64,000 bases of DNA from Agromyces sp. H17E-10. GTDB lineage: Bacteria > Actinomycetota > Actinomycetes > Actinomycetales > Microbacteriaceae. A program made the position numbers and the translations under genes. Below the pieces are notes generated by a model that saw only the letters and a program-made list of their open reading frames with translations, was not told the origin of the DNA and searched no databases. Where the stretch lies: assembly GCF_022919715.1 (NCBI RefSeq), contig NZ_CP095042.1, positions 1,302,001 through 1,366,000 on the forward strand, written 5' to 3'. Shown in pieces: positions 27,025 through 45,338 of this stretch (the first letter of the stretch is position 1; each line of letters begins with the position of its first letter).

Positions 27025-27064
27025 GTGTGACCGGGTGGGACCCGGTGTGACCGGGCGCGACCCG
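27025..27064. repeat. Two tandem 20-bp units containing GTGTGACC
   Basis: GTGTGACCGGGTGGGACCCG is followed directly by GTGTGACCGGGCGCGACCCG. The unit begins with the same GTGTGAC box and 20-bp period seen upstream of the LLM genes, but lies between two convergent genes. Confidence 0.75.
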
Positions 27065-30066: not shown

Positions 30067-30141
30067 TGGAGACTCCTCGGTCGATGGTGGGTCGAGGCTA
30101 CGAGCCGCCCGGGACCGCCTCAACCCTCGACGTCGCGGGCC

Positions 30142-30168
30142 GTCACGGCGCGCAACATTCGGACACAT
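30142..30168 (-). promoter_or_regulatory. Weak match to the GTGTGAC-N13-GTGTGAC box
   Basis: On the plus strand GTCACGG (30142) and GACACAT (30162) are 20 bp apart, like the pair at 45185/45205. A TAGCCT hexamer (30100-30095, minus) follows after 41 nt, one helical turn more than at the better sites. Confidence 0.3.
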
Positions 30169-31620: not shown

Positions 31621-31685
31621 ACGGTAGGGAACGGTCGCGAGCGCCGCGACCGTGCCCCGTCACACGGGGGCACGGAAGGTCACAC
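31621..31685 (-). promoter_or_regulatory. Regulatory box A and -10 region of the LLM gene at 30176
   Basis: Read on the minus strand: GTGTGAC (31685-31679), 13 nt, GTGTGAC (31665-31659), 32 nt, TACCGT (31626-31621). No good -35 hexamer is present, which fits an activator-dependent promoter. Confidence 0.55.
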
Positions 31686-31716
31686 TCGGACGCTTTCGCG
31701 AGCGCAGCGCCCGCGG

Positions 31717-32310
31717 TCACCAGTTCGACACGTACTCCGACACCCGGTCGGGCAGCGTGCCGCGTACGACGGGAGCGCCCCGCTGCACGGCTTGGCCGAT
31801 GCGCTCGTGGAGCTGCTCCGACGCCACCCGGTAGTCGACGAAGTCGCCGTCGCTCGCGTAGACCCCGATCGGCAGCGTGAGCGCCTGGAAGAACGAGAAC
31901 AGCGGCCGGAACTGGTGCTCGATGATGAGCGCGTGCCGGTTGCTGCCGCCGGTCGCCGCGAGTTGCACGGGCTTGTCGATCAGCGCGTACTGCCCCACGA
32001 AGTCGAACACGTGCTTGAACAGCCCCGTGAAGCTCGCCCGGTACACGGGACTCGCGACGATGAGCAGGGTCGACTGCTCGATCGCCCTGACCGCCTCCTC
32101 GGCGACCGGGCCGAGCTCGTCCCGGGTGAGCGCGCCCGAGAACTCGCGCCCGATCTCCGAGAGCTCGATGAGGCGGGTGTCGACCTCGTGCCCGCCGGGC
32201 GACCCCGCGAGCGCTTCCGCGAAGCGTTCGAGGAGTTCGCGGCTGAGCGCGGTGGTCTTCGAGGGGGCGTGCAGGCTGCCCGACACGGCGACGAGTGAGA
32301 TGTTCGACAT
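31717..32310 (-). CDS. NAD(P)H-dependent FMN reductase (MsuE/SsuE-like)
   Basis: Flavodoxin-fold reductase of 197 aa that would supply reduced FMN to the surrounding LLM monooxygenases. The N-terminal phosphate-binding loop is VAVSGSLHAPSKTTAL, and the flavin-binding ASPVYRASFTGLFKHVFDFV (in part SPVYRASFTGLFK) is typical of the MsuE/SsuE/CE1759 group. The TAGCTT hexamer ends 6 nt before the ATG, so the mRNA may be leaderless. It is the only flavin reductase gene seen in the cluster and must serve six oxygenases unless others exist elsewhere. Confidence 0.9.
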   Translation of the reverse strand: MSNISLVAVSGSLHAPSKTTALSRELLERFAEALAGSPGGHEVDTRLIELSEIGREFSGALTRDELGPVAEEAVRAIEQSTLLIVASPVYRASFTGLFKHVFDFVGQYALIDKPVQLAATGGSNRHALIIEHQFRPLFSFFQALTLPIGVYASDGDFVDYRVASEQLHERIGQAVQRGAPVVRGTLPDRVSEYVSNW

Positions 32311-32429
32311 GGCACGAAGCTAGAACTGCGAGGGCGATGCCGCGACCGGCCCCGTCGCGCACGGTAAGCCCGCGCAACCTGCCGCCACACGGCGCCGCGC
32401 GGCGACATGACGGGGGCGGCCGGAGGCCG

Positions 32430-33848
32430 TCACAACGACCTCAGGAGTCGCTCCGTGACGCGTGCCGAGAAGTGCAGCGCGTCGACGGGCACGTGCTCGT
32501 CGGCGGTGTGGAACTGCCCGAACACGTCGAATCCGTCGGGCACGCGCAGCGGCACGAAGCCGTACCCGGCGATGCCGAGCGCGGCCAGGTGCTTGTTGTC
32601 GGTCGACGCGGGCAGCAGGTAGGGCACGACGACGCCGCCAGGATCGTCGGCCTCGACGGCGCGCTGCATCCCGCCCAGGATCGGCGCGTCGACGGGCGCC
32701 GCGATGGGCGCGATCGACCTGACGATCTCGACGTCGACGCCTTCGCCCGCGAGGCGCTCGAGTTCGGCGACGACGGATGACTCGTGCCCGGGCAGCACCC
32801 GCAGGTCGACGTCGGCCGTGGCCACGCCCGGGATGACGTTCGTCTTCGATCCGGCGGTGAGCACGGTGGGCGAAGCGGTGTCGCGCAGGCCGGCCCCGAT
32901 GATCGAACCCGTGAATCCGAGATCGGCGAGCGCGCGCTCGAGCTCGGCCGGGTCCGAGGCATCCGGGAACGCACGCCCGCTCGCCTCGCCGAATCGCCGG
33001 AGGAACCCCTCGAGCGCGGGCGTCGCCTCGACGGGGAACCGGTGCTCGCCGATCGCGGCGACCGCCCGGGCGAGCCGCACAACCGCGTTGTCGTCGGTGG
33101 GTCGGGAGCCGTGCCCCGGTCGCCCGCGGGCGGTGAGGCGCGCCCATGAGACGCCCTTCTCAGCGGTCGCGGCGAGGTAGGCGCGGCGACCGTCACCGAG
33201 CGGCACCGAGAACCCGCCGACCTCGCTCAGCGCCTCGGTCGCCCCCGCGAAGAGGTCGGGGCGGTGCTCGACGAGCCACTTCGCGCCCCAGGTGCCGCCC
33301 GCCTCCTCATCGGCGAAGAACGCGAACACGAGGTCGCGGCCCGGCACGACGCCGTCGCGGGCGAACGCCCGCGCGACGGCGAGGAGCACGCCGGCGAAGT
33401 TCTTCATGTCGACGGCGCCGCGGCCGTAGAGCAGTCCGTCGTGGATCTCGGCGCCGAACGGCGGGTGCGTCCACTCCTGCCCGGCGACGGGCACGACGTC
33501 GAGGTGCGCGTGCACGACGAGCGCCCCGCGTGCGGGGTCGGCGCCCCCGAGTCGGGCGACGAAGCTGCCACGACCCGGCCGCGATTCGACGAGCTCGCCG
33601 ACGATGCCGACCTCGGCGAGCGCGGCCTGCACGAGACGGGCGGCGCGCGTCTCGCCGTCGCCGATCGTCGACGGGTCGCCCGTGTTGACGCTGTCGATGC
33701 GGATGAGCTCGCGGGTGAACCGCAGCGCCTCCTCCTCGAGGAGCCGCCGTCGCGCCGGCTCGGCCGACCCGGCGGAGTCGACCGAGTCGGCAGGGACGGC
33801 TGAGCCGGGGCGGGCGGGTGGTTCGTCACGGGTCGATCGGGCGCTCAT
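32430..33848 (-). CDS. M20-family metallohydrolase (probable N-acyl amino acid deacylase)
   Basis: Zinc hydrolase of 472 aa in the ArgE/DapE/CPG2 group. Metal and catalytic motifs are VVHAHLDVVPVAGQEW (His, Asp), YGRGAVDMKN (bridging Asp) and FFADEEAGG (catalytic Glu followed by metal-binding Glu). A dimerisation domain occupies about residues 230-340. In Bacillus S-alkyl-cysteine operons an M20 enzyme removes the N-acetyl group after oxygenation; the same role is inferred here from LLM, GNAT and amino-acid ABC neighbours. The ATG at 33848 is followed by a Ser/Ala/Pro-rich 35-residue N-terminus. Divergent from the LLM gene at 34072. Confidence 0.83.
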   Translation of the reverse strand: MSARSTRDEPPARPGSAVPADSVDSAGSAEPARRRLLEEEALRFTRELIRIDSVNTGDPSTIGDGETRAARLVQAALAEVGIVGELVESRPGRGSFVARLGGADPARGALVVHAHLDVVPVAGQEWTHPPFGAEIHDGLLYGRGAVDMKNFAGVLLAVARAFARDGVVPGRDLVFAFFADEEAGGTWGAKWLVEHRPDLFAGATEALSEVGGFSVPLGDGRRAYLAATAEKGVSWARLTARGRPGHGSRPTDDNAVVRLARAVAAIGEHRFPVEATPALEGFLRRFGEASGRAFPDASDPAELERALADLGFTGSIIGAGLRDTASPTVLTAGSKTNVIPGVATADVDLRVLPGHESSVVAELERLAGEGVDVEIVRSIAPIAAPVDAPILGGMQRAVEADDPGGVVVPYLLPASTDNKHLAALGIAGYGFVPLRVPDGFDVFGQFHTADEHVPVDALHFSARVTERLLRSL

Positions 33849-34000
33849 GCGACCACTGTCCCGAACCGCCGGCCGCCCGGCAAGCGGGAACGCGAACCGT
33901 GGCGACCGGGGTAGCGACGTTGCCTCGCGCGTCGCCGGATGACCTCCGCGAACGGCACGATGACCGCGTGTGACGGGGCGCCGAGGCATCCCGTGAAGCC

Positions 34001-34027
34001 GTGTGACCCAGGGCGGCCCCGCGTGAC
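34001..34027 (+). promoter_or_regulatory. Regulatory box B upstream of the LLM operon at 34072
   Basis: GTGTGAC (34001-34007) and GCGTGAC (34021-34027) are 20 bp apart, ending 44 bp before the ATG; an extra GTGTGAC lies at 33968-33974. I do not see a good -10 hexamer at the distance found for boxes A, C and D. Confidence 0.42.
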
Positions 34028-34071
34028 GGCGACCCTTGCGCGCACTGCCGGAGCCCGCCGAAGGTGATCGC

Positions 34072-35280
34072 ATGACTCGACCCATCATCGCCGTCGCGCT
34101 CGACGGGGCCGGTTGGCACCCCGCCGCCTGGCGCGACCCATCGGCCCGCCCGGCCGAACTGTTCTCCGCCCGCTACTGGCGCGACCTCGTGCAGTTCGCG
34201 GAGCGCGCCGACGTCGACCTCGTGACGATCGAAGACGCCCTCGGGCTGCAGTCGAGCGCGCTGTGGACGCCGGACGAACGCACCGACGAGGCGCGCGGCC
34301 GGCTCGATGCGCTGCTCATCGCCTCGTTCGTCGCGCCGGTGACGAGCCGCATCGGCCTCGTGCCGACCGTGACGACGACGCACACCGAGCCGTTCCACGT
34401 CGCGACGGGACTGCAGACGCTCGACTTCGCGAGCCGCGGCCGCGCCGGCTGGCGCCCGCAGGTCTCGGGCGCACCTCACGAGGCCGCGCACTTCGGGCGG
34501 CGCAGCCTGCCGCCGGTCGACCTCGCCGCCCTCCAGCGGGGCGACTCCGAGCAGATCCGCCCCGCCTTCGACGAGGCGCGCGACGTGGTCGAGGTGGTGC
34601 GCCGGCTCTGGGACAGCTGGGAGGACGACGCCGTTATCCGGGATGCCGCGAGCGGGCGGTTCATCGACCGCGGGAAGATCCACGGCGCCGAGTTCGAGGG
34701 CGCCTGGTTCAGCGTGAAGGGCGCATCGATCGTGCCCCGATCGCCCCAGGGGCAGCCGGTCGTGGCCGCCCTCGCGCACGCCGCCATCCCCTACGAATTC
34801 GCCGCCACGAGCGCCGACCTGGCCTTCGTCACGCCGCACGACGAGACGCAGGCCGCCACGATCCTCGGCGAGGTGCGCGATGCCGAGGCCCACGTCTCGC
34901 GCGACGGCGCACCGCTGGCGGTGCTCGCCGACCTCGTCGTCGTGCTCGAGTCGACGGAAGCGGCCGCGCGCGCCGCGCTCGCCCACCTCGACGAGCAGCA
35001 CGGCGCGCCGCTCACGTCGGACGCGCTCGTGTACGCCGGCACCCCGGCCGGGCTCGTCGAGCGCCTCGACGCGCTCGGCGCCGCCGGGTACGCGGGCGTG
35101 CGCCTGCGCCCGGCCAGGCTGCCGCGCGACCTCGAGCAGCTCGCCGACTGGGTGCTGCCCGCGCTCGGACGGCGCGCCGCCCCCGCCGACACCCTGCGCG
35201 AACGGCTCGGCCTCGCGCCGGCTGTGAACCGGTACACCGTGGCGCGGGACGCCGCCCGCACGAACGAGGAGGCCGCCTGA
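34072..35280 (+). CDS. LLM flavin-dependent monooxygenase (NtaA-related)
   Basis: Luciferase-like monooxygenase of 402 aa, shorter than the NtaA/DszA enzymes next to it. It has WRDLVQFAERADVDLVTIEDALG, SRIGLVPTVTTTHTEPFHVA, SRGRAGWRPQVSG and VVRRLWDSWEDDAVI (each shown in part). The ATG at 34072 has GAAGGTGA upstream. It begins a five-gene plus-strand operon; its stop TGA and the next ATG share one base. Substrate unknown; an alkyl-sulfur compound is inferred from neighbours. Confidence 0.82.
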   Translation: MTRPIIAVALDGAGWHPAAWRDPSARPAELFSARYWRDLVQFAERADVDLVTIEDALGLQSSALWTPDERTDEARGRLDALLIASFVAPVTSRIGLVPTVTTTHTEPFHVATGLQTLDFASRGRAGWRPQVSGAPHEAAHFGRRSLPPVDLAALQRGDSEQIRPAFDEARDVVEVVRRLWDSWEDDAVIRDAASGRFIDRGKIHGAEFEGAWFSVKGASIVPRSPQGQPVVAALAHAAIPYEFAATSADLAFVTPHDETQAATILGEVRDAEAHVSRDGAPLAVLADLVVVLESTEAAARAALAHLDEQHGAPLTSDALVYAGTPAGLVERLDALGAAGYAGVRLRPARLPRDLEQLADWVLPALGRRAAPADTLRERLGLAPAVNRYTVARDAARTNEEAA

Positions 35281-36674
35281 TGGCGACGACGAAACGCCAG
35301 GTGCACCTGGCCGCCCACTTCCCGGGCGTGAACAGCACGACGCTCTGGGCCGACCCGCTCCACAGGAGCCAGATCGACTTCACCGCGTTCGAGCACTTCG
35401 CCCGTACCGCCGAGCGCGGCCGGTTCGACTACGTGTTCCTCGCCGAGGGCCTGCGGCTGCGCGAGCACAAGGGTGAACTGCACGAGCTCGACGTCGTCGG
35501 CCGGCCGAACACGCTCGCCGTGCTCGCGGCACTCGCGGCGGTCACCGAGCACGTGGGCCTGGTGGGCACGCTCAGCGCCACCTTCAACGAGCCCTACGAG
35601 CTCGCCCGCCAGCTCGCGACGCTCGACCACCTCTCGGGCGGGCGGGCCGGCTGGAACGTGGTGACGAGCTCCGACGCGTTCCACGGCGCGAACTTCCGCC
35701 GCGGCGGGTACCTCGACCACGCCGACCGCTACACCCGGGCGAACGAGTTCGTGCGTCTCGCGAAGCAACTCTGGGACAGCTGGGCCGACGGCGCGATCGT
35801 CGCCGACCGCGCACAGGGCCGGTTCCTCGCCGACGGCTCCGCCGGCGAGTTCGCCCACCACGGCCCCCAGTTCGACGTGCGCGGGCGATTCACGACGCCA
35901 CGCAGCCCGCAGCGCTACCCCGTCATCGTGCAGGCCGGCGACTCGGCCGACGGACGCGACTTCGCCTCCGAGCACGCCGAGGTCATCTTCTCGCGGCACA
36001 GCGCCTTCGACGAGGCACGCACGTTCTACGACGACGTGAAGGGACGGCTCGCCGGCTGGGGACGGACCGAGGACTCGCTGAAGATCCTGCCCGCGGTGAC
36101 GTTCGCGATCGGCGACACGCAGGCCGAGGCCGACGAGGTCGCCCGCGAGGTGTCGCTCGCGCAGGTCACCCCGCGCAATGCGATCACCGTGCTCGAGCAG
36201 CTGTGGGGAACCGACCTCTCGGGCTACGACGCCGACGGTCCGCTGCCGGCGTTCGACCCGGGCGAGGGCCCCGCCGACACGGTGGCCGGCACGCTCACGA
36301 AGGGCTGGGCGCCGCGGTACCCGAACGCCGTGCAGATCGCGCGAGCCTGGCGTGCGCGGTCGGAGGCCGAGGGGCTCACCATCCGCGAGCTCGTGATCGC
36401 CGTCACGGGTCGGCAGTCGTTCGTCGGCACACCGGGGCGCATCGCCGCCGAGCTCGACCGGTACGTGCAGGAGCGCGCTGTCGACGGGTTCGTCGTGGTC
36501 GGCACCACCTCGCCGCACGGCCTCGACGAGTTCACCGATCGCGTGGTTCCCGAGCTGCAGGAGCGCGGCGTGTACCGCACCGAGTACGAGCCGGGGGCGA
36601 CCCTGCGGCAGAACCTCGGGCTGCCCGAACCGGCCCGATCGGCCGGAGACGAGGAGGTGCGTCGTGTCGGCTGA
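35280..36674 (+). CDS. NtaA/SnaA/DszA-family FMN-dependent monooxygenase
   Basis: LLM monooxygenase of 464 aa with the full set of NtaA/DszA marks: HFPGVNSTTLWADP, RFDYVFLAEGLRLRE, SGGRAGWNVVTSSDAFHGAN (20 residues), and FRRGGYLDHADRY. Members oxidise sulfones (DszA), sulfonate esters (SeuA-like) or aminopolycarboxylates (NtaA). It starts within the stop of the previous gene (1-base overlap) and its 3' end overlaps the next gene by 11 bases, so it is tightly co-translated. It needs an external FMN reductase, likely that at 31717. Confidence 0.9.
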   Translation: MATTKRQVHLAAHFPGVNSTTLWADPLHRSQIDFTAFEHFARTAERGRFDYVFLAEGLRLREHKGELHELDVVGRPNTLAVLAALAAVTEHVGLVGTLSATFNEPYELARQLATLDHLSGGRAGWNVVTSSDAFHGANFRRGGYLDHADRYTRANEFVRLAKQLWDSWADGAIVADRAQGRFLADGSAGEFAHHGPQFDVRGRFTTPRSPQRYPVIVQAGDSADGRDFASEHAEVIFSRHSAFDEARTFYDDVKGRLAGWGRTEDSLKILPAVTFAIGDTQAEADEVAREVSLAQVTPRNAITVLEQLWGTDLSGYDADGPLPAFDPGEGPADTVAGTLTKGWAPRYPNAVQIARAWRARSEAEGLTIRELVIAVTGRQSFVGTPGRIAAELDRYVQERAVDGFVVVGTTSPHGLDEFTDRVVPELQERGVYRTEYEPGATLRQNLGLPEPARSAGDEEVRRVG

Positions 36675-37941
36675 GCCCACCCGCGTGCCCCTCTCGGTGC
36701 TCGACCTCGTGCCGATCGCCGAAGGATCGACCGCCGGCGAGGCGCTGCACCGGTCGATTGACCTCGCCCGCGCTGCAGAGCGCTTCGGCTACGCCCGCTA
36801 CTGGCTGGCCGAGCACCACCTCAACCCCGGTGTCGCCGGTGCGGCGCCGCACACCTTCGTCGGTGTGCTCGCCGCCTCGACCGAGCGCATCCGCGTCGGT
36901 ACGGCGGCCACCATACTCGGCAACTACGAGCCGTTACAGGTCGCCGAGGCCCTCGGCACGGTCGCCGCACTGTGGCCGGGCCGCGTCGACCTCGGTCTCG
37001 GGCGGTCGGGAGTCCCGCCGGTGCCCGTCGCCGGCGGTGAGGCGTCGGACGGGCCATCCACGGCACCGGCCGCTGCGGCCGCGCCGGCCGCAGCACCGGG
37101 CGCGAACGCGATCGTCGACGGCCTCGTGGTGCCGGCCGACCGGCCGTTCCGATTCGACCGCGCGAGGTTCGCGGTGCAGGCGCGCCTGCTCGGCCGGGTG
37201 CCCGGCGACGCGGCGCGATTCGCCGACGACGTCGACGCCCTGCGCGGATTCCTCGCCGGACCGGTCGAGTTCGCCGACGGGGTGCGCGTCCTCGCCCAGC
37301 CTGCGCCCGGCAGCGGCGTGGAGGTCTGGGTGCACGGCTCGAGCGCGGGTGAGAGCGCACGGCTCGCGGGCCGGCTCGGCCTGCGGTTCGGCGCGAACTA
37401 CCATGTCGCGCCGAGCGGGGTGCTCGCCGCCGTCGAGGAGTACCGGGCGCACTTCACCCCGTCGGCCGAGCTCGCCCGCCCGCACGTCATCGTCTCGGTC
37501 GACGTCGTGGTCGCGGCGACCGACGCCGAGGCGCGGCGACTCGCCGCCGGATACGCCGAGTGGGTGCTGTCGATCCGCGAGGGGCAGGGCGCGGTGCCCT
37601 ATCCCGCTCCGGAGCGGGCGACCCCGATCGAGGCGCTCGCCCCCGAGCAGGCCGCCGCAGTTCAGGACCGCCTCGACACCCGGTTCGTCGGCTCACCCGC
37701 CACCGTCGTTGCGCAGCTCGAGACGCTGCAGCGCGCGACCGGCGCCGACGAACTGCTCGTCACGACGATCACGCACGACCATGCGCGCCGGGTCGACTCG
37801 TACCGATTGCTCGCCGAGGCGTGGCATTCAGGGGCCTTCTCGGCCTCGGAAGACGACACGTGGCGACGCACGGTGACGCCCGATGACGGCCGCGAGACAT
37901 CTCTCGTCACGACCGCCGAGCGGCGCCCGGCGCGTGCCTAG
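36664..37941 (+). CDS. MsnO8/YtmO-type LLM monooxygenase
   Basis: LLM protein of 425 aa starting at GTG. PLSVLDLVPIAEGSTAGEAL and YARYWLAEHHLNPGVAG are the N-terminal signature of the MsnO8 group, to which Bacillus YtmO (CmoO) of S-alkyl-cysteine degradation belongs. GRVDLGLGRSG follows. An Ala/Pro-rich insert of about 20 residues lies near 130-150 and a 25-residue polar tail ends the protein. It overlaps the upstream LLM gene by 11 bases. Confidence 0.85.
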   Translation: MSAEPTRVPLSVLDLVPIAEGSTAGEALHRSIDLARAAERFGYARYWLAEHHLNPGVAGAAPHTFVGVLAASTERIRVGTAATILGNYEPLQVAEALGTVAALWPGRVDLGLGRSGVPPVPVAGGEASDGPSTAPAAAAAPAAAPGANAIVDGLVVPADRPFRFDRARFAVQARLLGRVPGDAARFADDVDALRGFLAGPVEFADGVRVLAQPAPGSGVEVWVHGSSAGESARLAGRLGLRFGANYHVAPSGVLAAVEEYRAHFTPSAELARPHVIVSVDVVVAATDAEARRLAAGYAEWVLSIREGQGAVPYPAPERATPIEALAPEQAAAVQDRLDTRFVGSPATVVAQLETLQRATGADELLVTTITHDHARRVDSYRLLAEAWHSGAFSASEDDTWRRTVTPDDGRETSLVTTAERRPARA

Positions 37942-37950
37942 CATGCCGAC

Positions 37951-38799
37951 ATGACCGACACACTGAACCCCGTGACCACCACCGCCGACGCCGTGATCGA
38001 CCGCGCCGATTTCGCCCGCGACTGGGAGGAGTGGCACCGCGCCCACGAGGCCGCCCGAGCCGGCGAGCACGGGTTCCTCGCCGTGACCGGCCTGCACTGG
38101 CTGACCGCTGAGCCGCAGCGCTTCGACGACGCCCCCGGCGCGTGGTCGACGAGCGAAGCGGGCCCCGTCGTCGAGCTCGAGCCGGGCGAGCTGCTCGAGC
38201 TCGACGGCGTCGCCCTCGAAGGGCGCCACGAGTTCGGCCCGATCGCCGAGCGCGACGGCGTCACCCTGCGCTCGGGCGACCTCGCGATCGAGCTCGCCCG
38301 CCGCGGCGGCAGCGACATCCTGCGACCGCGCGACCCGGCGTTCCCGTTCCGTGCCACCTACGCCGGCACGCCCACGTACCTGCCGAACCCCCGTTGGCTC
38401 GCCCACGGCCGATTCGTGCCGTTCGCCGAGGCGCGGGTGGTCACGGTCGGCGCCGCCGTCGAGGGGCTGCAGCACGTCTACGAGGCCCCGGGCGAGATCG
38501 AGTTCGAGCTGCGCGGCGAGACGTTCCGGCTCACCGCGTTCAACGGCTCGGCACCCGGAAGCCTGTTCGTGCTGTTCACCGACGCGACGAGCGGCCTCAC
38601 CACGTACGCGGCGAACCGCAGCCTGTCGATCGACGCGCCCGGCCCCGACGGCGGCATTCTCGTCGACTTCAACCGTGCCGTGAACCTGCCCTGCGCCTAC
38701 ACCGACTTCGCGACCTGCCCGCTGCCGCCGGCCGAGAACCGGCTGCCCATCGGCATCGAGGCGGGCGAGAAGACGCCGCTCGCGCGCCAGGCGGCCTGA
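37951..38799 (+). CDS. DUF1684 protein
   Basis: Protein of 282 aa covering one DUF1684 domain: WRAHEAARAG-like start (WHRAHEAARAGEHGFLAVTG), FVLFTDATSGLTTYAANR, VDFNRAVNLPCAYTDFATCP and PPAENRLPIGIEAGEK. The conserved Cys residues, Asp-Phe-Asn-Arg and Glu-Asn-Arg motifs suggest an enzyme, but no function is established. A TAGCAT hexamer that includes the previous stop codon ends 6 nt before the ATG, so it may also have its own leaderless promoter. It is followed 3 bp later by another LLM gene, implying a role in the same pathway. Confidence 0.85.
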   Translation: MTDTLNPVTTTADAVIDRADFARDWEEWHRAHEAARAGEHGFLAVTGLHWLTAEPQRFDDAPGAWSTSEAGPVVELEPGELLELDGVALEGRHEFGPIAERDGVTLRSGDLAIELARRGGSDILRPRDPAFPFRATYAGTPTYLPNPRWLAHGRFVPFAEARVVTVGAAVEGLQHVYEAPGEIEFELRGETFRLTAFNGSAPGSLFVLFTDATSGLTTYAANRSLSIDAPGPDGGILVDFNRAVNLPCAYTDFATCPLPPAENRLPIGIEAGEKTPLARQAA

Positions 38800-38802
38800 G
38801 CG

Positions 38803-40023
38803 ATGCGGTTCCAGCTGCTCGACATCGTCCCGTACGTCGAGAACCCGGTCACCGGGCGACTCGTGAGCCCCGCCGAGCGCCTCGAGCAGACCGTCGACGC
38901 GGCCCGCCGCGCCGAGCGTCTCGGGTTCGACGCGTTCTCGGTGGGCGAGCGACACGCGGGGACCTTCCTCTCGTCGTCGCCGTCGGTGCTGCTCGGCGCG
39001 ATCGCAGCGTCGACCTCGCGCATCCGCCTGCACACGGGCGTCACCGTGCTGTCGGTGCTCGACCCGGTGCGCGTCGCCGAGGACTACGCAACCGTCGACC
39101 AGCTCTCGCGCGGCCGGCTCGAGCTCACGATCGGCAAGGGCAACGAGGTCGCCCAGTTCCCGCTGTTCGGGCTCGAGATCGACGACCAGTGGGAGCTGCT
39201 CGCCGACAAGTACGCGCTGCTGCGCCGGCTCTGGCGTGAGACCGACGTCGACCACGGGGCCACCGCGTACACGCGTGCGCAGCGGGCGACGACGACGCTC
39301 CCACGCCCGTTCGCCGGCGCCCCGCGCGTCTGGCACGGGTCGGCGACGACGCTCGCGTCCGCCGCCCTCGCCGCGAAGTGGGGCGACCCGCTGTTCACGG
39401 CGAACGCGATCCAGCCGCTCGAGAACTACGCCGTGCTCGTGCGGCACTACCGCGACGAGTACGCACGGCACGGGCACGACCCGCGCTACGCGTACGTGGG
39501 CGCCGGGTCGGGCGCGCTCTACATCGCCGACACTGCGCAGCAGGCCCGGGAGCTCTACGGCCCCGTCTACGACGCGCTCGTCCGGGCGACGAACGTGCCG
39601 GGCAACAACACCCCCTTCCGCGACATCGACCATGCGATCGCCGAGGGCCCGGCGCTCGTCGGCAGCCCGCAGCAGGTGATCGACAAGATCGGCCGGTTCC
39701 ACGAGCGCTTCGGGCACGACCTGCAGTCGGTGAGCCTGCCGACGACGCTGCCCGTCGAGCAGCAGCACGAGCAGCTCGAGCGGCTGGCGAGCGAGGTGTT
39801 TCCGGTGCTGCGCCGTGAGTTCCCGACGACCCTGTGGGGTGTCGGCGATCCCTACGCTGCACGACCGGCGTTCGCCGGGGCCGCCGAACCCGACGCGGCG
39901 TCCGCCGTCGAGTCGACGAGCGGCGACCGCGGCGACCGCGGAGACCGGCGCGACCGCGGCGGCCGCGACGAGCTCGCGGAGACCGTCGGTCGCCTGGCGG
40001 GCGTGCCGTCGTCGAGCCGATAG
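38803..40023 (+). CDS. LLM class flavin-dependent oxidoreductase
   Basis: LLM protein of 406 aa, with family marks GFDAFSVGERHAGTFLSSSP, ASTSRIRLHTGVTVLSVLDP and LSRGRLELTIGKGNE. It is the last gene of the plus-strand operon and is followed by a strong hairpin. The C-terminal 45 residues are a charged Gly-Asp-Arg repeat tail not found in the fold. The substrate is unknown; it may act on the product of another LLM enzyme or serve a different organosulfur source. Confidence 0.83.
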   Translation: MRFQLLDIVPYVENPVTGRLVSPAERLEQTVDAARRAERLGFDAFSVGERHAGTFLSSSPSVLLGAIAASTSRIRLHTGVTVLSVLDPVRVAEDYATVDQLSRGRLELTIGKGNEVAQFPLFGLEIDDQWELLADKYALLRRLWRETDVDHGATAYTRAQRATTTLPRPFAGAPRVWHGSATTLASAALAAKWGDPLFTANAIQPLENYAVLVRHYRDEYARHGHDPRYAYVGAGSGALYIADTAQQARELYGPVYDALVRATNVPGNNTPFRDIDHAIAEGPALVGSPQQVIDKIGRFHERFGHDLQSVSLPTTLPVEQQHEQLERLASEVFPVLRREFPTTLWGVGDPYAARPAFAGAAEPDAASAVESTSGDRGDRGDRRDRGGRDELAETVGRLAGVPSSSR

Positions 40024-40058
40024 CCGGTCGGCGCGGCACAGCGACCACGCAGGAGAAA

Positions 40059-40097
40059 CGAAGGATGCCGCGCGGCCTCGCCGCGCGGCATCCTTCG
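40059..40097. terminator. Bidirectional hairpin terminator
   Basis: Perfect 18-bp stem (CGAAGGATGCCGCGCGGC and its complement) with a 3-nt CTC loop between the convergent LLM gene and the ABC binding-protein gene. Confidence 0.8.
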
Positions 40098-40108
40098 TCG
40101 TGGTGCGC

Positions 40109-41122
40109 CTATTCGGCCTTCGGCAGTCCCGGCGGGTTGACCTCCGACGCGTCGACACCCTCGGACGTGAGCGCCCAGCGCTCGAGCACCTCGTCGTACG
40201 TGCCGTCGTCGATGATCGACTGCAGCACGAGCTGCACCGGCTCGACGAGCCCGTTGCCCTTCGCCGTGCCGGCCGCGATCGGCGCCGTCTCGGGCCATCC
40301 GCCGTCGAGGGTGCCGACGAGCTTCGACTCCCCCGTCGCCGCCGCACGGTAGGCGGCGGTCGCGTTCGGGCCGAGCGTCGCGTCGACGCGACCCGACGAG
40401 AGCGCGAGATCGGCGGCGGCCTGGTCGTCGTAGTAGACCAGCTCGGCCGGCTTCTCGCCGTCGGCCTCGAGCTCCTCGTTCCAGGCGAGCAGGATCTTCT
40501 CCTGGTTCGTGCCCGATCCGACGACGATCTTCAGGCCGGCGACGTCGGCGGGCTCGGAGATCTCGTCGATGTCGCTGTCGGCCTGCACGTAGAAGCCGAG
40601 CAGGTCCTGCCGGTAGCTCGCGAAGTCGAAGAGCTCCTTGCGCTCCTCGGTGACCGTCACGTTCGAGGCGACGAGGTCGTACTTGCCCGACTGCACGCCG
40701 AGCGGCCAGTCGGCCCAGTCGACCGCGACCGGGTGGTACTCGAGGCCCAGCCCGTCGGCGATGAGCGACCCGAAGTCCGCCTCGGTGCCGATCACCGTCG
40801 TGTTGTCGTCGCTCGCGAGCACGCCGAGCGGGGCCGCCCAGGGCGAGATCGCCACCGTGAGCTTGCCGGGCTCGATGGGCTCGAACCCGCTCTCCTCGAG
40901 CGCCGCCACCGCCTCGTCGACCGGGTCGATGTGCGGCCGGTCCTTCGCGTTCTGCGAGGTCAGGTCGAACGTCGTCGCCGCCTCGACCTGCTCCTCGGTC
41001 GTGCCGGCGGCTTCGGCCGATGAGTCGTTCGAGCCGACGGCCCACCAGATTCCGCCGCCGATGAGCGCGACCGCCGCGACGCCCGCGACGATCACCCCCG
41101 CCTGCTTCTTGTTGATCGCCAT
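40109..41122 (-). CDS. Amino-acid ABC transporter substrate-binding protein, membrane-anchored
   Basis: Family 3 (amino-acid) binding protein of 337 aa. Instead of a lipobox it has an uncleaved-looking N-terminal helix (GVIVAGVAAVALIGGGIWWAV), so it is probably anchored by this helix with the binding lobe outside. The fold contains LTVAISPWAAPLG, YDLVASNVTVTEERKE and AGLKIVVGSGTNQEK, as in cystine/polar amino-acid binders. It lies downstream of its ATPase and permease, separated from them by a hairpin. Its ligand would be an S-substituted cysteine or similar by context. Confidence 0.84.
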   Translation of the reverse strand: MAINKKQAGVIVAGVAAVALIGGGIWWAVGSNDSSAEAAGTTEEQVEAATTFDLTSQNAKDRPHIDPVDEAVAALEESGFEPIEPGKLTVAISPWAAPLGVLASDDNTTVIGTEADFGSLIADGLGLEYHPVAVDWADWPLGVQSGKYDLVASNVTVTEERKELFDFASYRQDLLGFYVQADSDIDEISEPADVAGLKIVVGSGTNQEKILLAWNEELEADGEKPAELVYYDDQAAADLALSSGRVDATLGPNATAAYRAAATGESKLVGTLDGGWPETAPIAAGTAKGNGLVEPVQLVLQSIIDDGTYDEVLERWALTSEGVDASEVNPPGLPKAE

Positions 41123-41176
41123 GAGAGGACTCTCCTAGGGTTGTGCTGTTCCGATGACCGGACGGTTTCTCGGTTC

Positions 41177-41208
41177 GCCCGGTGCGGCACGGCTATGCCG
41201 CACCGGGC
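41177..41208 (-). terminator. Intra-operon hairpin before the binding-protein gene
   Basis: Perfect 13-bp stem GCCCGGTGCGGCA / TGCCGCACCGGGC with a 6-nt loop, in the 111-bp gap between the ATPase and binding-protein genes. Probably an attenuator or stability element. Confidence 0.65.
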
Positions 41209-41233
41209 CTCGTTCCCCTCGCGAGGGCCGGTG

Positions 41234-42151
41234 CTAGAGCACCTTCGCGAGGAAGTCTCTGGTGCGCTGATGCCGCGGTGTGCGCAGCACCTGCGCCGGT
41301 GGCCCCTGCTCGACGATCTCGCCCCCGTCGAGGAAGACGACGCGGTCGGCGACCTCGCGGGCGAAGCCGATCTCGTGGGTGACGACCACGAGCGTCGTGC
41401 CGTCGCGGGCGAGCCCGCGGATGACGTCGAGCACCTCGCCGACGAGCTCGGGGTCGAGCGCGCTCGTCGGCTCGTCGAAGAGCAGCACCTTCGGCGAGAG
41501 CGCGAGCGCCCGGGCGATCGCGACGCGCTGCTGCTGACCGCCCGAGAGCTGACGGGGGTAGTGATCGGCCTTGTCGGCGAGGCCGACCCGGGCGAGCAGC
41601 GCCTTCGCGAGCTCGCGCGCCTCGCGCTTCGACTGTCGGCGGAGCGCGACGGGCGCCTCGATGACGTTCTCGATCGCCGTGAGGTGCGGGAACAGGTTGA
41701 AGTTCTGGAAGACGAGCCCGAACTGGGTGCGCCGCCGCAGGATCTCGGCCTCGCGCAGCTCGTAGAGCCGGTCGCCCTTGCGCTCGTAGCCGATGTACTG
41801 TCCGTCGAGCGTGATCGAACCGCGGTCGACCGTTTCGAGATGGTTGATGGTGCGCAGCAGCGTCGACTTGCCCGAGCCCGACGGCCCGATCAGCGCGATC
41901 ACCTCGCCCGGCTCGATCGTGAGCGACACGTCGCGCAGCACCTGGTGCGAACCGTACGACTTCGAGACCTCGTCGATCTCGATCCGGCCGAGGGTCGCGA
42001 CCGTTCGCGACGGCAGCCACTGCTCGTCGAACGACGGCGCGAGGACGATGCCGCTGCGGGCGACAGCATCCGGATCGGTCGTGTCAGGCCGGCTGGTCGT
42101 GGCGGGCTGCCTGGTCGGGGCGGGCTGGCCGGTCGTGGCGGGCTGGCTCAT
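41234..42151 (-). CDS. Amino-acid ABC transporter ATP-binding protein
   Basis: ATPase of 305 aa of the GlnQ/TcyC type. Walker A GPSGSGKST (89-97), QNFNLFPHLTAIENV, signature LSGGQQQRVAIARAL, Walker B VLLFDEPTSALDPELV and THEIGFAREVAD are intact. Usual members are about 245-260 aa; here the first 50 residues are an extra Pro/Thr-rich leader with repeated QPATT units. The ATG overlaps the permease stop by 4 bases. It powers the importer for the organosulfur cluster. Confidence 0.9.
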   Translation of the reverse strand: MSQPATTGQPAPTRQPATTSRPDTTDPDAVARSGIVLAPSFDEQWLPSRTVATLGRIEIDEVSKSYGSHQVLRDVSLTIEPGEVIALIGPSGSGKSTLLRTINHLETVDRGSITLDGQYIGYERKGDRLYELREAEILRRRTQFGLVFQNFNLFPHLTAIENVIEAPVALRRQSKREARELAKALLARVGLADKADHYPRQLSGGQQQRVAIARALALSPKVLLFDEPTSALDPELVGEVLDVIRGLARDGTTLVVVTHEIGFAREVADRVVFLDGGEIVEQGPPAQVLRTPRHQRTRDFLAKVL

Positions 42152-43290
42152 CGGGCACCTCCGGTGCGGGTCGGGGCGGTCGCGCCGCCGTGGCCGGCCG
42201 CGGCGAGCGCGGGCACGGTGTCCTTCTCGGGGGCGGATGCCCCGGGCTCCACCCGTTCGTCGGTGGAGCGCCGATCGTCGCCGGCGCTCGCCACCACCCC
42301 TGCCGCCGAGGCATCCGTATTCGGACCTGCCGGCGCGTCGCCGAGCCGCGCCCATTGCTCGGCCGCCCAACGGCGGCCGCGCTGGATCGGGGTCGGCGGC
42401 AGCTCGCGCACCGCGCCCCGCGCGTAACGGCGCTCGACGTAGTACTGCGCGATCGAGAGCACGGTCGTGACGAGCGCGTACCAGACGACCGCGACGAGCA
42501 GCAGCGGGATCACGAGTTGGGTGCGGTTGTAGATGACCTGCACGTTGTAGAAGAGCTCGGGCAGTGCGACGACGAACACGACCGACGTGCCCTTGACGAG
42601 TCCGATCACCTCGTTGAACGCGTTCGGCACGATCGCCCGCGCGGCCTGCGGGAGGATGATGCGGAAGAACCGCACCCGTCGGGGCAGGCCGAGCGCGGCA
42701 GCCGCTTCGAGCTGGCCCTGGTCGACGGAGAGGATGCCGCCGCGGATGATCTCGGCGGAGTACGCGGCCTGGTGCAGCGAGAGCCCGATGGTCGCCGCCG
42801 CGAAGTTGCTGACGAGCGTCGTCGTCTGGAACTCGGCGAGCCAGAAGTCGGTCGTGAACGGAGTGCCCAGCCCGAGCGTGGGGTAGAGATACCCGAGGTT
42901 GTACCAGACGAGGATCTGCACGACGAGCGGCACGGACCGGAAGAACCAGATGTACCACCACGCGGCCGCACTGAGCAGCGGCGACTTCGAGAGCCGGAAC
43001 ACGGCGAGCACCGCGCCGAGCACGAACCCGATGAGGCCCGAGATCACGGTCAGCTGGAGCGTGAGCAGGAGCCCCTGCACGACGGCCGGCGAGAAGAAGT
43101 ACTCGGCGAAGACGTCCCATTGCCACTTCGGGTTGGAGGCCAGCGACCAGAGGAACTGGAGGACGAGGAACGCGACGACGGCGGAGGCGATCCAGCGCCC
43201 CCGGTGCTTGACGGCGACGACGGTCAGGCCGTGGGCGGCCTGCGCCGATCCCGTGGTCGGCTGCTCGAAGTCCTTCGCGATGGTGGTCAT
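42148..43290 (-). CDS. Amino-acid ABC transporter permease with long tail
   Basis: Polar amino-acid permease of 380 aa (HisM/TcyB type). Helices begin near residue 33; the conserved FFRSVPLVVQILVWYN, SAEIIRGGILSVDQGQLEAA and AAALGLPRRVRFFRIILPQAARAIVPN (in part) segments form the core and EAA loop. The core ends near residue 300; the last 75 residues are a hydrophilic, Ala/Gly/Thr-rich cytosolic tail absent from typical members. It overlaps the GNAT gene upstream and the ATPase gene downstream by 4 bases each. Confidence 0.88.
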   Translation of the reverse strand: MTTIAKDFEQPTTGSAQAAHGLTVVAVKHRGRWIASAVVAFLVLQFLWSLASNPKWQWDVFAEYFFSPAVVQGLLLTLQLTVISGLIGFVLGAVLAVFRLSKSPLLSAAAWWYIWFFRSVPLVVQILVWYNLGYLYPTLGLGTPFTTDFWLAEFQTTTLVSNFAAATIGLSLHQAAYSAEIIRGGILSVDQGQLEAAAALGLPRRVRFFRIILPQAARAIVPNAFNEVIGLVKGTSVVFVVALPELFYNVQVIYNRTQLVIPLLLVAVVWYALVTTVLSIAQYYVERRYARGAVRELPPTPIQRGRRWAAEQWARLGDAPAGPNTDASAAGVVASAGDDRRSTDERVEPGASAPEKDTVPALAAAGHGGATAPTRTGGAR

Positions 43291-43840
43291 GCGACGGCCT
43301 CCTCACGGGCGAGCGACTTGCGGAATGCGTGGACGCCGATCTCGGAGGCCGGCAGCGACGGGTCGAACTGCGGCTCGTATCCGCTCGCGAGGTAGAGCGC
43401 GACGGCCTCGGGCTGGCGCGGCCCCGTCGTGAGGAAGATCTGCTCGTACCCGCGCCGACGGGCCTCGGCCTCGAGCTCGGCGACGACGCGACGCGCGAGT
43501 CCGCGACCGCGGCGGTCCGGCCGGGTCCAAATGCGCTTGAGCTCGGCGGTGCGCTCGTCGTACCGCCGGAAGGCGCCGCCGGACACCGCCTCTTCGCCGC
43601 CCGCCACCGCCTCTTCGTCGCCCGACACCGCCTCTTCGCCGCCCGCCCCGGCTCGGTGAGCACGAGGAACGCACCGTGCGGCGGTGCGAACTCCGCGAGC
43701 GGGTAGCGGCTCAGCTCGGTGCTCGCCGCTTCGCCGAAGAAGTCGCCGTAGCGCGTGTCGTATTCGCGCTCGAGGTCGGCGAAGAGCGGCTTCGCCAACC
43801 GATCGTCTGCGGCGATGAACCGCACGGTCGTGTCGCCCAT
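43287..43840 (-). pseudogene. GNAT acetyltransferase gene with internal frameshift
   Basis: The N-terminal half (MGDTTVRFIAADDRLAKPLF ... HGAFLVLTEPGR) starts at an ATG at 43840 behind GGGAGG. The C-terminal half (GGAFRRYDERTAELKRIWTR, then the acetyl-CoA loop RRGRGLARRV) is in a frame shifted by one base. The break lies at the GC-rich GGGGCGGGCGGC, next to three 21-bp repeats encoding EEAVxG. Either the gene is broken, it uses a programmed frameshift, or the assembly has an error. A GNAT enzyme N-acetylates the substrate in Bacillus S-alkyl-cysteine operons, so this would be a key gene. Its end overlaps the permease ATG. Confidence 0.8.
43581..43643 (-). repeat. Three 21-bp tandem repeats in the GNAT gene
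   Basis: Units 43581-43601, 43602-43622 and 43623-43643 share ACCGCCTCTTCG and differ at a few positions. The period is a multiple of three, so copy changes alone would not shift the frame. Confidence 0.85.
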
Positions 43841-43891
43841 CGTGGCCTCCCGGAAATCGTTCGGCCGGGTCGTTCCCGGCGCGTGACCTCG

Positions 43892-43956
43892 ACGGTATGG
43901 AGGCGACGGAGACCCGTGCAATCGCCCGGTTCACGGGGTGACCGATACCGTCACCG
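43892..43956 (-). promoter_or_regulatory. Regulatory box D and -10 of the GNAT-ABC operon
   Basis: Minus strand: CGGTGAC (43956-43950), 13 nt, CCGTGAA (43936-43930), 32 nt, TACCGT (43897-43892). The -10 hexamer and the spacing equal those of box A. Confidence 0.5.
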
Positions 43957-44082
43957 GCCGTCACGCCCGGCGACGGCGACGTCGCGGGGAGTCACGCGAC
44001 ACGTGTCATGCGACGCAATGCGCGCAGTGCGTCGCCGTGCGCGCGGTCCGTCGCCGGGCGCGCGTCCGTCGCCGTGCGGGGA

Positions 44083-45126
44083 TCAGGCGGCGGAGGTCCG
44101 TGCGGGCACGGTCGCACCCCACCCGAGCGCGGGCGCGACCTCGCGGGCGATGAGCTCGATCGAGCGCAGCACGAGCTCGTGCGGCGGGTCGACCGAGTGC
44201 ACCTGGAACGCCACCTCGGTCGCCTGCGCGGCGACATCGTCACGGGCGAGCGACTCGATGACGTCGTCGACCGTGCCGACGTGGGTGTCGTAGGCGGCGA
44301 TGAGGTCGTCGAGCCGGTCCCCGAGCGGCATCTGTCCGGCACGGGCGAACCCGACGACGGCGCGGCGCAGACCGATCTCCGCGTAGCGGCGGGCCTCCGC
44401 GCGCGAGTCGGCGACGAACACGGTGCGGGAGGCGACGATCCGAGGCGGCACCCCGTGCGGCAGCGCCGCGCGGTACGCGTCCACGATCGGCTGTTGCACG
44501 TGCGAGAGGCTCGCGCGCGGAGCATCCGCCGATCTCGGCTGAGTGCGGGAGAGCATGAGACCGTGCCCGGCCCGCCCGGCGCGCGTGCCGCCCGAGGGCG
44601 AGAAGGTCGCCTGCCAGACCCTGCCGAGCAGGCCCCTGCCCGGCGGCTGCAGGCGGTTCGCGTCGTCGCCGAGGGCGCCGCCCGCGAGCGCGGCGACGAG
44701 CGCGTCGACCTTCTCGTCGAAGATGCGCGCACGTTCGTCGGGGTTCGCCCCGAACGCGAGGAACGAGGCCGGCGTCGACCCGGAGCCGAGCCCGAGCTCG
44801 ACACGGCCTCCCGAGAGCAGGTCGAGCACGACGGCATCTTCGGCGACGCGCACGGGGTCTTCGAGCGGGAGGGTCACGACTCCCGTGCCGAGCCGGATGC
44901 GCGAGGTCTGCGCCGCTACGTGCGCGAGGAGCACGAATGGCGACGGCATGCCGCCCTCGGCGGCGTGGAAGTGGTGCTGCGCGACCCACGCCGAGTCGAA
45001 CCCCTGCCGCTCGGCTGCGACGATCTGTTCGATCGCGATGCGGTACCGTTCCGCCGCGCCCGTGTCGTCGAGCAGGCGGGTGAAGAATCCGATGCGGGTC
45101 ACGCGGCCGCCCTCATGCTCGGTCAT
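44083..45126 (-). CDS. LLM flavin monooxygenase (KPN_01858-like)
   Basis: LLM monooxygenase of 347 aa. FFTRLLDDTGAAERYRIAIE, FDSAWVAQHHFHAAEGGMPS and LLSGGRVELGLGSGSTP match the putative FMN-dependent luciferase-like group often found beside ABC importers. The start at 45126 has a GGGAGG site 8 nt upstream. It is transcribed alone, with its own regulatory box, and is the sixth LLM gene of the cluster. A 242-bp gap separates it from the GNAT-ABC operon. Confidence 0.83.
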   Translation of the reverse strand: MTEHEGGRVTRIGFFTRLLDDTGAAERYRIAIEQIVAAERQGFDSAWVAQHHFHAAEGGMPSPFVLLAHVAAQTSRIRLGTGVVTLPLEDPVRVAEDAVVLDLLSGGRVELGLGSGSTPASFLAFGANPDERARIFDEKVDALVAALAGGALGDDANRLQPPGRGLLGRVWQATFSPSGGTRAGRAGHGLMLSRTQPRSADAPRASLSHVQQPIVDAYRAALPHGVPPRIVASRTVFVADSRAEARRYAEIGLRRAVVGFARAGQMPLGDRLDDLIAAYDTHVGTVDDVIESLARDDVAAQATEVAFQVHSVDPPHELVLRSIELIAREVAPALGWGATVPARTSAA

Positions 45127-45147
45127 GTTCAGCCCTCCCGGCACCCG

Positions 45148-45211
45148 AGATTAGGCAAGGCGTCCGGATGCCGCGACCCGACGTGTCACACAGGCGAACC
45201 GGGTGTCACAT
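45148..45211 (-). promoter_or_regulatory. Regulatory box C and -10 of the LLM gene at 44083
   Basis: Minus strand: ATGTGAC (45211-45205), 13 nt, GTGTGAC (45191-45185), 31 nt, TAATCT (45153-45148). As at box A, the proximal repeat ends 58 bp before the ATG. Confidence 0.55.
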
Positions 45212-45338
45212 GGGGTCACCGTCGTTGCGCGTCCGGCCGATGTGCGGTGCGGCATCCCGGCCGATGTGCGGTGCGCCGGGCGGGCGGGCGAGGCGATCTC
45301 CGACAGGATGTCGAGCACGGAGTACGGGAGGGGACCCG

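Follow-up and report, generated by a model that had tools for sequence, protein, structure and literature searches.

A phased half-site array as the putative operator of a sulfur-limitation regulon in Agromyces and other Microbacteriaceae

Why does a short direct repeat recur, at a set distance from predicted -10 hexamers, before monooxygenase, reductase and transporter genes of Agromyces sp. H17E-10? The genes lie in a stretch of 64,000 nucleotides, positions 1,302,001 to 1,366,000 of contig NZ_CP095042.1 (G000:C1:1302001-1366000 in our numbering), which is referred to here as the window. A sequence-only reading had proposed that the repeat, GTGTGAC-N13-GTGTGAC, marks an organosulfur regulon controlled by a single activator encoded elsewhere. 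Our analysis supports the core of that reading, namely a shared box with a set spacing from the -10 and sulfur genes behind it, and revises its repeat unit, its range of spacings and its scope. The box is probably the operator of a sulfur-limitation regulon, bound as an array by an activator of the OmpR/PhoB type, with an orphan winged-helix protein placed under a cysteine leader peptide as its most likely binder.

The box sequences and coordinates in the window were correct on re-reading. Across the 4.25-Mb genome, GTGTGAC-N13-GTGTGAC with no more than one mismatch occurs in four places, all of them in the window (27025, 31659, 34001 and 45185) and within 18 kb of one another (27.0-45.2 kb). 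When two mismatches are allowed the count rises to 11, against 9 for a reversed-pattern control, which is near chance. In 100 genomes, the own genome included, the exact motif is present at 22 places in 17 genomes and its control at none. Fifteen of these places precede orthologues of LLM1, the first of six luciferase-like monooxygenase (LLM) genes of the window, three precede orthologues of its class V pyridoxal phosphate (PLP) enzyme gene, and four precede neither (L029, L038, L042 and window 27025). The related pattern GTGAC-N5-GTTNC-N5-GTGAC is found at 21 places in 20 of 249 Microbacteriaceae genomes, representing 15 of 85 genera, with a single control match, and a third pattern, at up to two mismatches, is found in 51 of 60 Agromyces genomes, at about 125 places against 24 controls (table summed by hand). 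The motif is not equally frequent elsewhere in this genome, it outnumbers its reversed control in relatives, and the boxes are real, far beyond chance. An accident, or a habit of GC-rich repeats in this genome, might be argued from the exact copy at 27025-27051, away from any promoter, and from one strong background match in 400 kb of sequence. Such an origin is extremely improbable given the counts in relatives (22 and 21 places against controls of 0 and 1), and the conserved promoters and quantised spacing described below already contradict it for the promoter-linked sites.

The proposed 20-bp unit, in contrast, has to be rejected. The underlying unit is a GTNAC-like half-site, repeated head to tail in 10-bp phase, and in the regions 5' of LLM1 orthologues the two GTGTGAC boxes are members of a longer array. 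When 16 Agromyces promoters were anchored on the half-site nearest the -10, with no period imposed, extra half-sites lay at offsets of 10, 20, 30 and 40 (11, 16, 10 and 7 times, respectively); offsets 41 and 42 occurred a single time each, and the remaining ones from 6 to 44 not at all. Many Microbacterium LLM1 promoters carry the same kind of array, in the form GTGAC-N5-GTTAC-N5-GTGAC.

A scoring matrix of 25 positions was built from 48 hand-picked sites of relatives, of which 33 are LLM1 promoters (chosen by best array score, not by the -10) and one is a PLP promoter; no LLM6, DUF1684 or M20 promoter was included, and LLM1 relatives lacking a visible array were omitted, as were matches from Proteobacteria, Streptomyces and Paenibacillus. 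Scores above 14 are reached by eight matches in the 64-kb window (six places, two pairs overlapping) and by one in 400 kb sampled from this genome. This lone background match scores 21.3 and lies at a gene end (L347:5382); the next background scores run from 12.6 down. The window sites rank in the order LLM1 (24.4), PLP (21.4), 37863 (18.9), LLM2 (18.2), LLM6 (18.1) and 27027 (17.1), the top rank of LLM1 not being independent, given the share of LLM1 promoters in the training set. With a training median of 28, the window sites are weaker than typical. Two arrays, box D (9.3-11.0) and that before the flavin mononucleotide (FMN) reductase gene (10.0-11.7), rest mainly on their spacing, since they do not beat the background below its top match. 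The sites, with their predicted -10 hexamers, are as follows.

31659-31685, minus strand: box A, predicted LLM1 operator, an exact GTGTGAC-N13-GTGTGAC kept before LLM1 orthologues; half-sites GTGAC, GTGCC and GTGAC at 10-bp steps
31621-31626, minus strand: predicted -10 TACCGT of LLM1
30142-30166, minus strand: putative operator upstream of the class V PLP gene, one mismatch to GTGAC-N5-GTTNC-N5-GTGAC
30095-30100, minus strand: predicted -10 TAGCCT of the PLP gene
32364-32408, minus strand: degenerate half-site array before the FMN reductase gene (ATGTC, GCGGC, GTGGC, GTTGC, CTTAC)
32317-32322, minus strand: predicted -10 TAGCTT of the FMN reductase gene
33993-34027, plus strand: box B, putative operator of the LLM2 operon, one mismatch (GTGAA, GTGAC, GCGGC, GTGAC)
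37863-37887, plus strand: additional putative operator within the 3' end of LLM4, before DUF1684-LLM5 (GCGAC, GTGAC, ATGAC)
37939-37944, plus strand: predicted -10 TAGCAT of DUF1684-LLM5
43930-43964, minus strand: box D, a weak array and putative operator upstream of the transporter operon (GTGAC, GTGAC, CGGTC, GTGAA)
43897-43902, minus strand: predicted -10 TACCGT behind box D
45185-45219, minus strand: box C, putative LLM6 operator, one mismatch (GTGAC, GTGAC, GTTCG, GTGAC)
45148-45153, minus strand: predicted -10 TAATCT of LLM6
27025-27051, plus strand: exact box copy in a GC-rich, 10-bp-periodic stretch; rejected as an operator because the flanking genes converge and no promoter is seen, and probably fortuitous

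How are these arrays placed with respect to the promoter? In the 48 sites of relatives, the distance from the last half-site to a TANNNT hexamer is 31-32 nt in 29 and 40-42 nt in 16, which together account for 45 of the 48, and no TANNNT lies at any other distance within the stretch examined. Three sites (L062, L063 and L068) have none, probably an effect of keeping no more than 60 nt beyond each site. The distances in the window are 32 nt (box A), 31 nt (box C), 32 nt (box D), 41 nt (PLP), 41 nt (FMN reductase) and 51 nt (DUF1684-LLM5). The first three had been read correctly before, as had the lack of an evident -10 behind box B, which is followed by no TANNNT and has just GAAGGT at 32 nt. 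Arrays are present before the PLP and FMN reductase genes, where weaker variants of the box had been suspected, but with revised extents and distances; the GTCGCGC at 32354, previously placed 31 nt from TAGCTT, is the next 10-bp step of the FMN reductase array. The site at 37863-37887 is an addition to the earlier list. What had been taken for one fixed spacing is therefore sharply quantised in the relatives, and may also be one or two helical turns longer. An array that shifts against the -10 only by whole helical turns is what one would expect of a protein whose contact with RNA polymerase is made on a single DNA face, and the fixed helical phase of a class I or class II activator operator is seen in the same 45 of 48 sites. 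This geometry suggests that the bound factor is an activator.

The genes behind the sites point to sulfur. The PLP genes of three relatives (L032, L037 and L041) are preceded by a box, as in the window, and the FMN reductase orthologue of L234 has a clear one. Besides LLM1, further LLM genes carry sites (L182 and L188), as do genes for O-acetylhomoserine sulfhydrylase (metY; L175, L241 and L243, the L241 product scoring over its model cut-off) and OsmC-like proteins (L225-L228, with L181 and L185 by eye). In L233, L239 and L240 a site precedes a sulfite-reductase-like gene followed by one for 3'-phosphoadenosine 5'-phosphosulfate (PAPS) reductase (cysH), the L240 PAPS reductase being over its cut-off. 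The former owes the name sulfite reductase to its neighbours, which are cysH and cysN-like genes; this protein did not reach the cut-off of any family model. Orthologues of it at E <= 1e-100 are present in 10 of 110 genomes, and in 8 of these 10 the 420 bases upstream contain an array at a shuffle p of no more than 0.0034. A TANNNT follows the best array at 31 or 32 nt in six of these promoters (including L368) and at 42 nt in that of the own genome, giving 7 of 10. The name organosulfur regulon was right in that sulfur genes are marked in the relatives, and too narrow in its scope: judged by its gene content, the predicted regulon is one of sulfur supply and assimilation in general.

Which protein would read such an array? 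The operator geometry led us to look for an OmpR-type protein, and the genome has 12 matches to PF00486. The candidate is an orphan winged-helix protein of 270 residues as called (G000:C1:1596874-1597683), unlinked to the cluster, in keeping with the expectation that the regulator would be encoded elsewhere. Its C-terminal Trans_reg_C domain scores 81.1 bits against PF00486 (cut-off 26.2). No receiver domain was matched in Pfam, and in the structure model confidence is confined to the DNA-binding domain and low for the N-terminal part. The modelled DNA-binding fold matches the domains of GlnR and PhoB; among solved structures GlnR is closest by sequence (8hig, 8hml and 8hih), and the fold comparison likewise places it nearest GlnR, at 45-48% identity. 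The protein is present at E <= 1e-40 in 118 of 120 Microbacteriaceae and in 60 of 60 Agromyces, a match in G204 (E 3e-19) being left out of the count as it is at the level of GlnR cross-matches. Homologues at 44-51% identity occur in eight genomes of one further family, their nearest named protein being from Arthrobacter. Two neighbourhoods of the gene were noted by eye: a SulP-like permease stands beside it in the own genome (L254/L260), and in L263/L264 an LLM2-like monooxygenase does so, together in L263 with a carboxymuconolactone decarboxylase-family gene (by family match).

The resemblance to GlnR raises the question whether GlnR itself, the nitrogen regulator, binds the boxes, so that the sulfur genes answer to nitrogen or to both signals. 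The genome encodes a true GlnR, recognised by its GlnR_1st domain (PF21695), and known GlnR sites are GTnAC repeats, with four DNA-binding domains arranged head to tail on a promoter (PMC10704036). We nevertheless regard this as unlikely. The published half-sites are n6-spaced, with a period of 11 bp against 10 bp here (PMC10704036), the marked genes are sulfur genes, and an array is found at the leader promoter of the winged-helix gene, whereas a quick score of the GlnR locus gave no comparable array before the gene. The candidate itself gives no match to the GlnR_1st domain.

Another protein might be the binder, the leader-linked gene then being a mere further target: MtrA, RegX3 or some other phosphorylated response regulator of the OmpR family, for example, or an AraC-type reader of 20-bp units. 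There are ten further PF00486 matches in the genome that could supply it, and MtrA sites have a GTCACA/TGTGAC core. On a survey of regulator genes that covered the PF00486 family, this reading is rather doubtful, since close copies of the box are confined to sulfur genes, unlike the sites of a general cell-envelope regulator, and a 10-bp period running for up to six steps is awkward for a 20-bp AraC unit. The unlinked winged-helix protein is, on sequence grounds, most likely the protein that binds the boxes, an assignment that the evidence strongly suggests rather than demonstrates.

A second line of evidence comes from upstream of the regulator gene. In 29 of 30 loci an open reading frame (ORF) there ends in MCCRMC(R/A/S) (24 loci) or a close variant (5 loci), the 30 being the best matches of the Microbacteriaceae search and not a random draw; L269 has no such ORF. 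Among Agromyces loci the leader is present in 30 of 31, L312 lacking it. The own-genome leader has 33 codons and ends Cys-Cys-Arg-Met-Cys-Arg. In 27 of 29 loci TTGAC lies 31-37 nt before the leader ATG, with a -10-like hexamer near the ATG, which makes a leaderless transcript probable. Endings of the CCRMHA type occur in three Arthrobacter-like loci, and Cys-rich ORFs were listed, with no control, in two more families. One feature expected of cysteine attenuation, a short ORF that lies upstream of the gene and has Cys codons clustered near its stop, is present, and suggests that cysteine would control the regulator through the leader. In 27 Agromyces sequences the Cys-Cys codons are predicted to be able to pair with the ribosome-binding site, and conserved hairpins are predicted as well. 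In a wider set of 37 leaders these codons are TGTTGT (25), TGTTGC (8), TGCTGT (3) and CAGTGT (1), and because of this variation the pairing is not universal. An Rfam search of four regulator loci returned nothing relevant.

The leader promoter also provides what we see as the main tie between the candidate protein and the operator. In Agromyces it reads GTCAC-N5-GTCAT-N6-GTCAY-GAATT-GACAY, a row of four reversed half-sites whose final member overlaps the -35. Of 29 Agromyces leader promoters, 25 have the full reversed pattern and all 29 have the pair next to the -35 (L261 and L312 are outside this count). In a wider set of 39 leader promoters, 18 have an array on the reverse strand at p <= 0.05, and 5 have one on the forward strand. 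Such reversed half-sites would fit autorepression.

These elements can be combined into a model. The half-sites, commonly three to six, end whole helical turns upstream of a -10 that lacks a good -35, and an array of the OmpR/PhoB-type activator would line one side of the helix there, next to RNA polymerase. Its own transcript would start, leaderless, with the 33-codon peptide. When cysteine is short, ribosomes would stall at the Cys codons and the leader RNA would refold, allowing synthesis of the regulator. This protein would activate sulfate reduction, metY, organosulfur monooxygenases, FMN reductase and transporters, and would hold down its own promoter by way of the reversed half-sites over the -35. 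The most comprehensive form of the model, in which a GlnR-like orphan is the master sulfur regulator of Micrococcales, made only upon Cys-Cys stalling at codons that mask the ribosome-binding site, acting through phased arrays and repressing itself, is in our view as apt to fail as to hold.

Several observations weigh against the proposed regulon and its mechanism. The box is conserved before LLM1 in Agromyces and many Microbacterium, but is missing in those Microbacterium where LLM1 comes straight after another gene; LLM1 relatives in operons, where LLM1 lies close behind another gene, have no box (for example L073, L078, L079, L083, L084, L086, L089, L090, L099 and L103). Two sulfite-reductase promoters, L368 and L373, give p values of 0.08 and 0.07. 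The GlnR of the same genome has a recognition helix similar to that of the candidate. The reversed array is not significant in 21 of the 39 leader promoters (a count that includes L319, which does carry the array), and Arthrobacter-like leader promoters have forward GTTAC repeats instead. The leader counts, 29 of 30 and 30 of 31, were made without a shuffled control. In the 27 Agromyces sequences there is little covariation in the leader RNA, with changes on both sides in 2 of 35 pairs, and no U-run terminator was seen in the leader RNA. As a separate observation, the forward repeats of L327, L328 and L330, which are Arthrobacter-like, take the form GTTAC-N15-GTTAC before the leader and are perhaps a diverged operator.

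How does this system compare with those already known? CpxR-type sites of Proteobacteria, which belong to the OmpR family, likewise have 5-nt half-sites at a 10-bp period; they differ in sequence, function and phylum, and their regulator has a phosphorylated receiver. The GlnR regulon shares GTnAC-type direct half-sites upstream of promoters, head-to-tail domains, the absence of a partner kinase and a close DNA-binding domain, but it comprises nitrogen genes with an 11-bp period, in contrast to the sulfur genes and 10-bp period here, and the candidate sits behind a cysteine leader. In Corynebacterium glutamicum, CysR and SsuR are ROK-type activators of sulfate and sulfonate assimilation and thus also sulfur regulators of an actinobacterium, but their operators are A/T-rich inverted repeats (PMC2580772); the GC-rich direct-repeat array found here led us to reject a model of that type. 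Cysteine-rich leader ORFs, with Cys codons near the stop, are described upstream of cysteine genes in mycobacteria, P. acnes and B. longum, the mycobacterial ones being leaderless and one of them preceding Rv0485 (PMC1262725 and PMC4633059). Here, by contrast, a single conserved leader stands before the gene of a DNA-binding protein that apparently governs a regulon. The system is thus apparently a combination of OmpR-type arrays and cysteine leader peptides, each of a known kind. In the titles and abstract openings of the open-access literature searched, no sulfur regulon, operator code or regulator is described for Microbacteriaceae. If correct, the model would give this large group of soil and plant bacteria all three, with a named candidate regulator, and would assign a role to a core gene whose annotation says no more than winged helix-turn-helix protein. 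The reach of cysteine leader peptides would grow from single cys genes to a switch for a whole regulon, in which translation senses cysteine and one DNA-binding protein relays the signal to all the genes, and the spacing of the activator would be a clear example of quantisation by helical turns.

The genes of the window that stand behind the sites are the following.

28702-30066, minus strand: class V aminotransferase or cysteine desulfurase-like PLP enzyme (PF00266, 261 bits; GTG start assumed); SufS-like models score below their cut-offs
30176-31600, minus strand: LLM1, NtaA/DmoA-family FMN-dependent monooxygenase (TIGR03860, 374.7 bits, cut-off 279.7)
31717-32310, minus strand: FMN reductase, MsuE type (TIGR03566, 227.9 bits, cut-off 212.5)
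34072-35280, plus strand: LLM2, luciferase-like monooxygenase (PF00296 over cut-off, TIGR03860 below)
35280-36674, plus strand: LLM3, NtaA/DmoA family (TIGR03860, 425.8 bits, over cut-off)
36664-37941, plus strand: LLM4, MsnO8 family (TIGR03558, 304.6 bits, over cut-off)
37951-38799, plus strand: DUF1684 protein (PF07920)
38803-40023, plus strand: LLM5, luciferase-like monooxygenase, CE1758-like (TIGR04036, 257.1 bits, below the cut-off of 479.1)
40109-43290, minus strand: ATP-binding cassette (ABC) transporter, with permease 42148-43290 and ATPase 41234-42151 (PF00528, PF00005) and binding protein 40109-41122 (models below cut-offs)
44083-45126, minus strand: LLM6, KPN_01858-type FMN-dependent monooxygenase (TIGR04027, 518.8 bits, cut-off 412.9)

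Downstream of box D, an acetyltransferase-like ORF (43551-43840, minus strand) enters an Arg/Lys-rich repetitive stretch and shifts its frame; the reading 43287-43840 has no Pfam match, and the ORF may be broken or misread. Many relatives have a peptide-type ABC transporter and an LLM6 orthologue behind LLM1 (L030-L045 and L049-L103), unlike the window, where LLM1 and LLM6 lie apart. Across 94 loci, some entered twice, the clusters of the binding protein, permease, ATPase and LLM6 are represented in 44, 40, 47 and 37, respectively.

Other matches in relatives are of several kinds. A box-like match in L242 (5178-5203, minus strand) lies reversed, just before a gene that resembles serA by eye, and near-identical matches in G024 and G030 (L038 and L042) bring it to three Agromyces genomes; serine is a precursor of cysteine, and sites of this type are possibly another, repressing operator. 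The L231 site adjoins an SfnB-like gene in ambiguous orientation, those of L232 and L244 lie within coding sequence, and we have no interpretation for matches in L029, L038, L042, L177-L180, L183, L184, L186, L187, L189, L190 and L194. Finally, clear boxes 31 nt from a -10 (L191 7466, L192 7605 and L193 7230) precede, in three genomes that belong to one genus, the gene of a small protein some 83 residues long; it has no Pfam match and may be a new member of the sulfur regulon.

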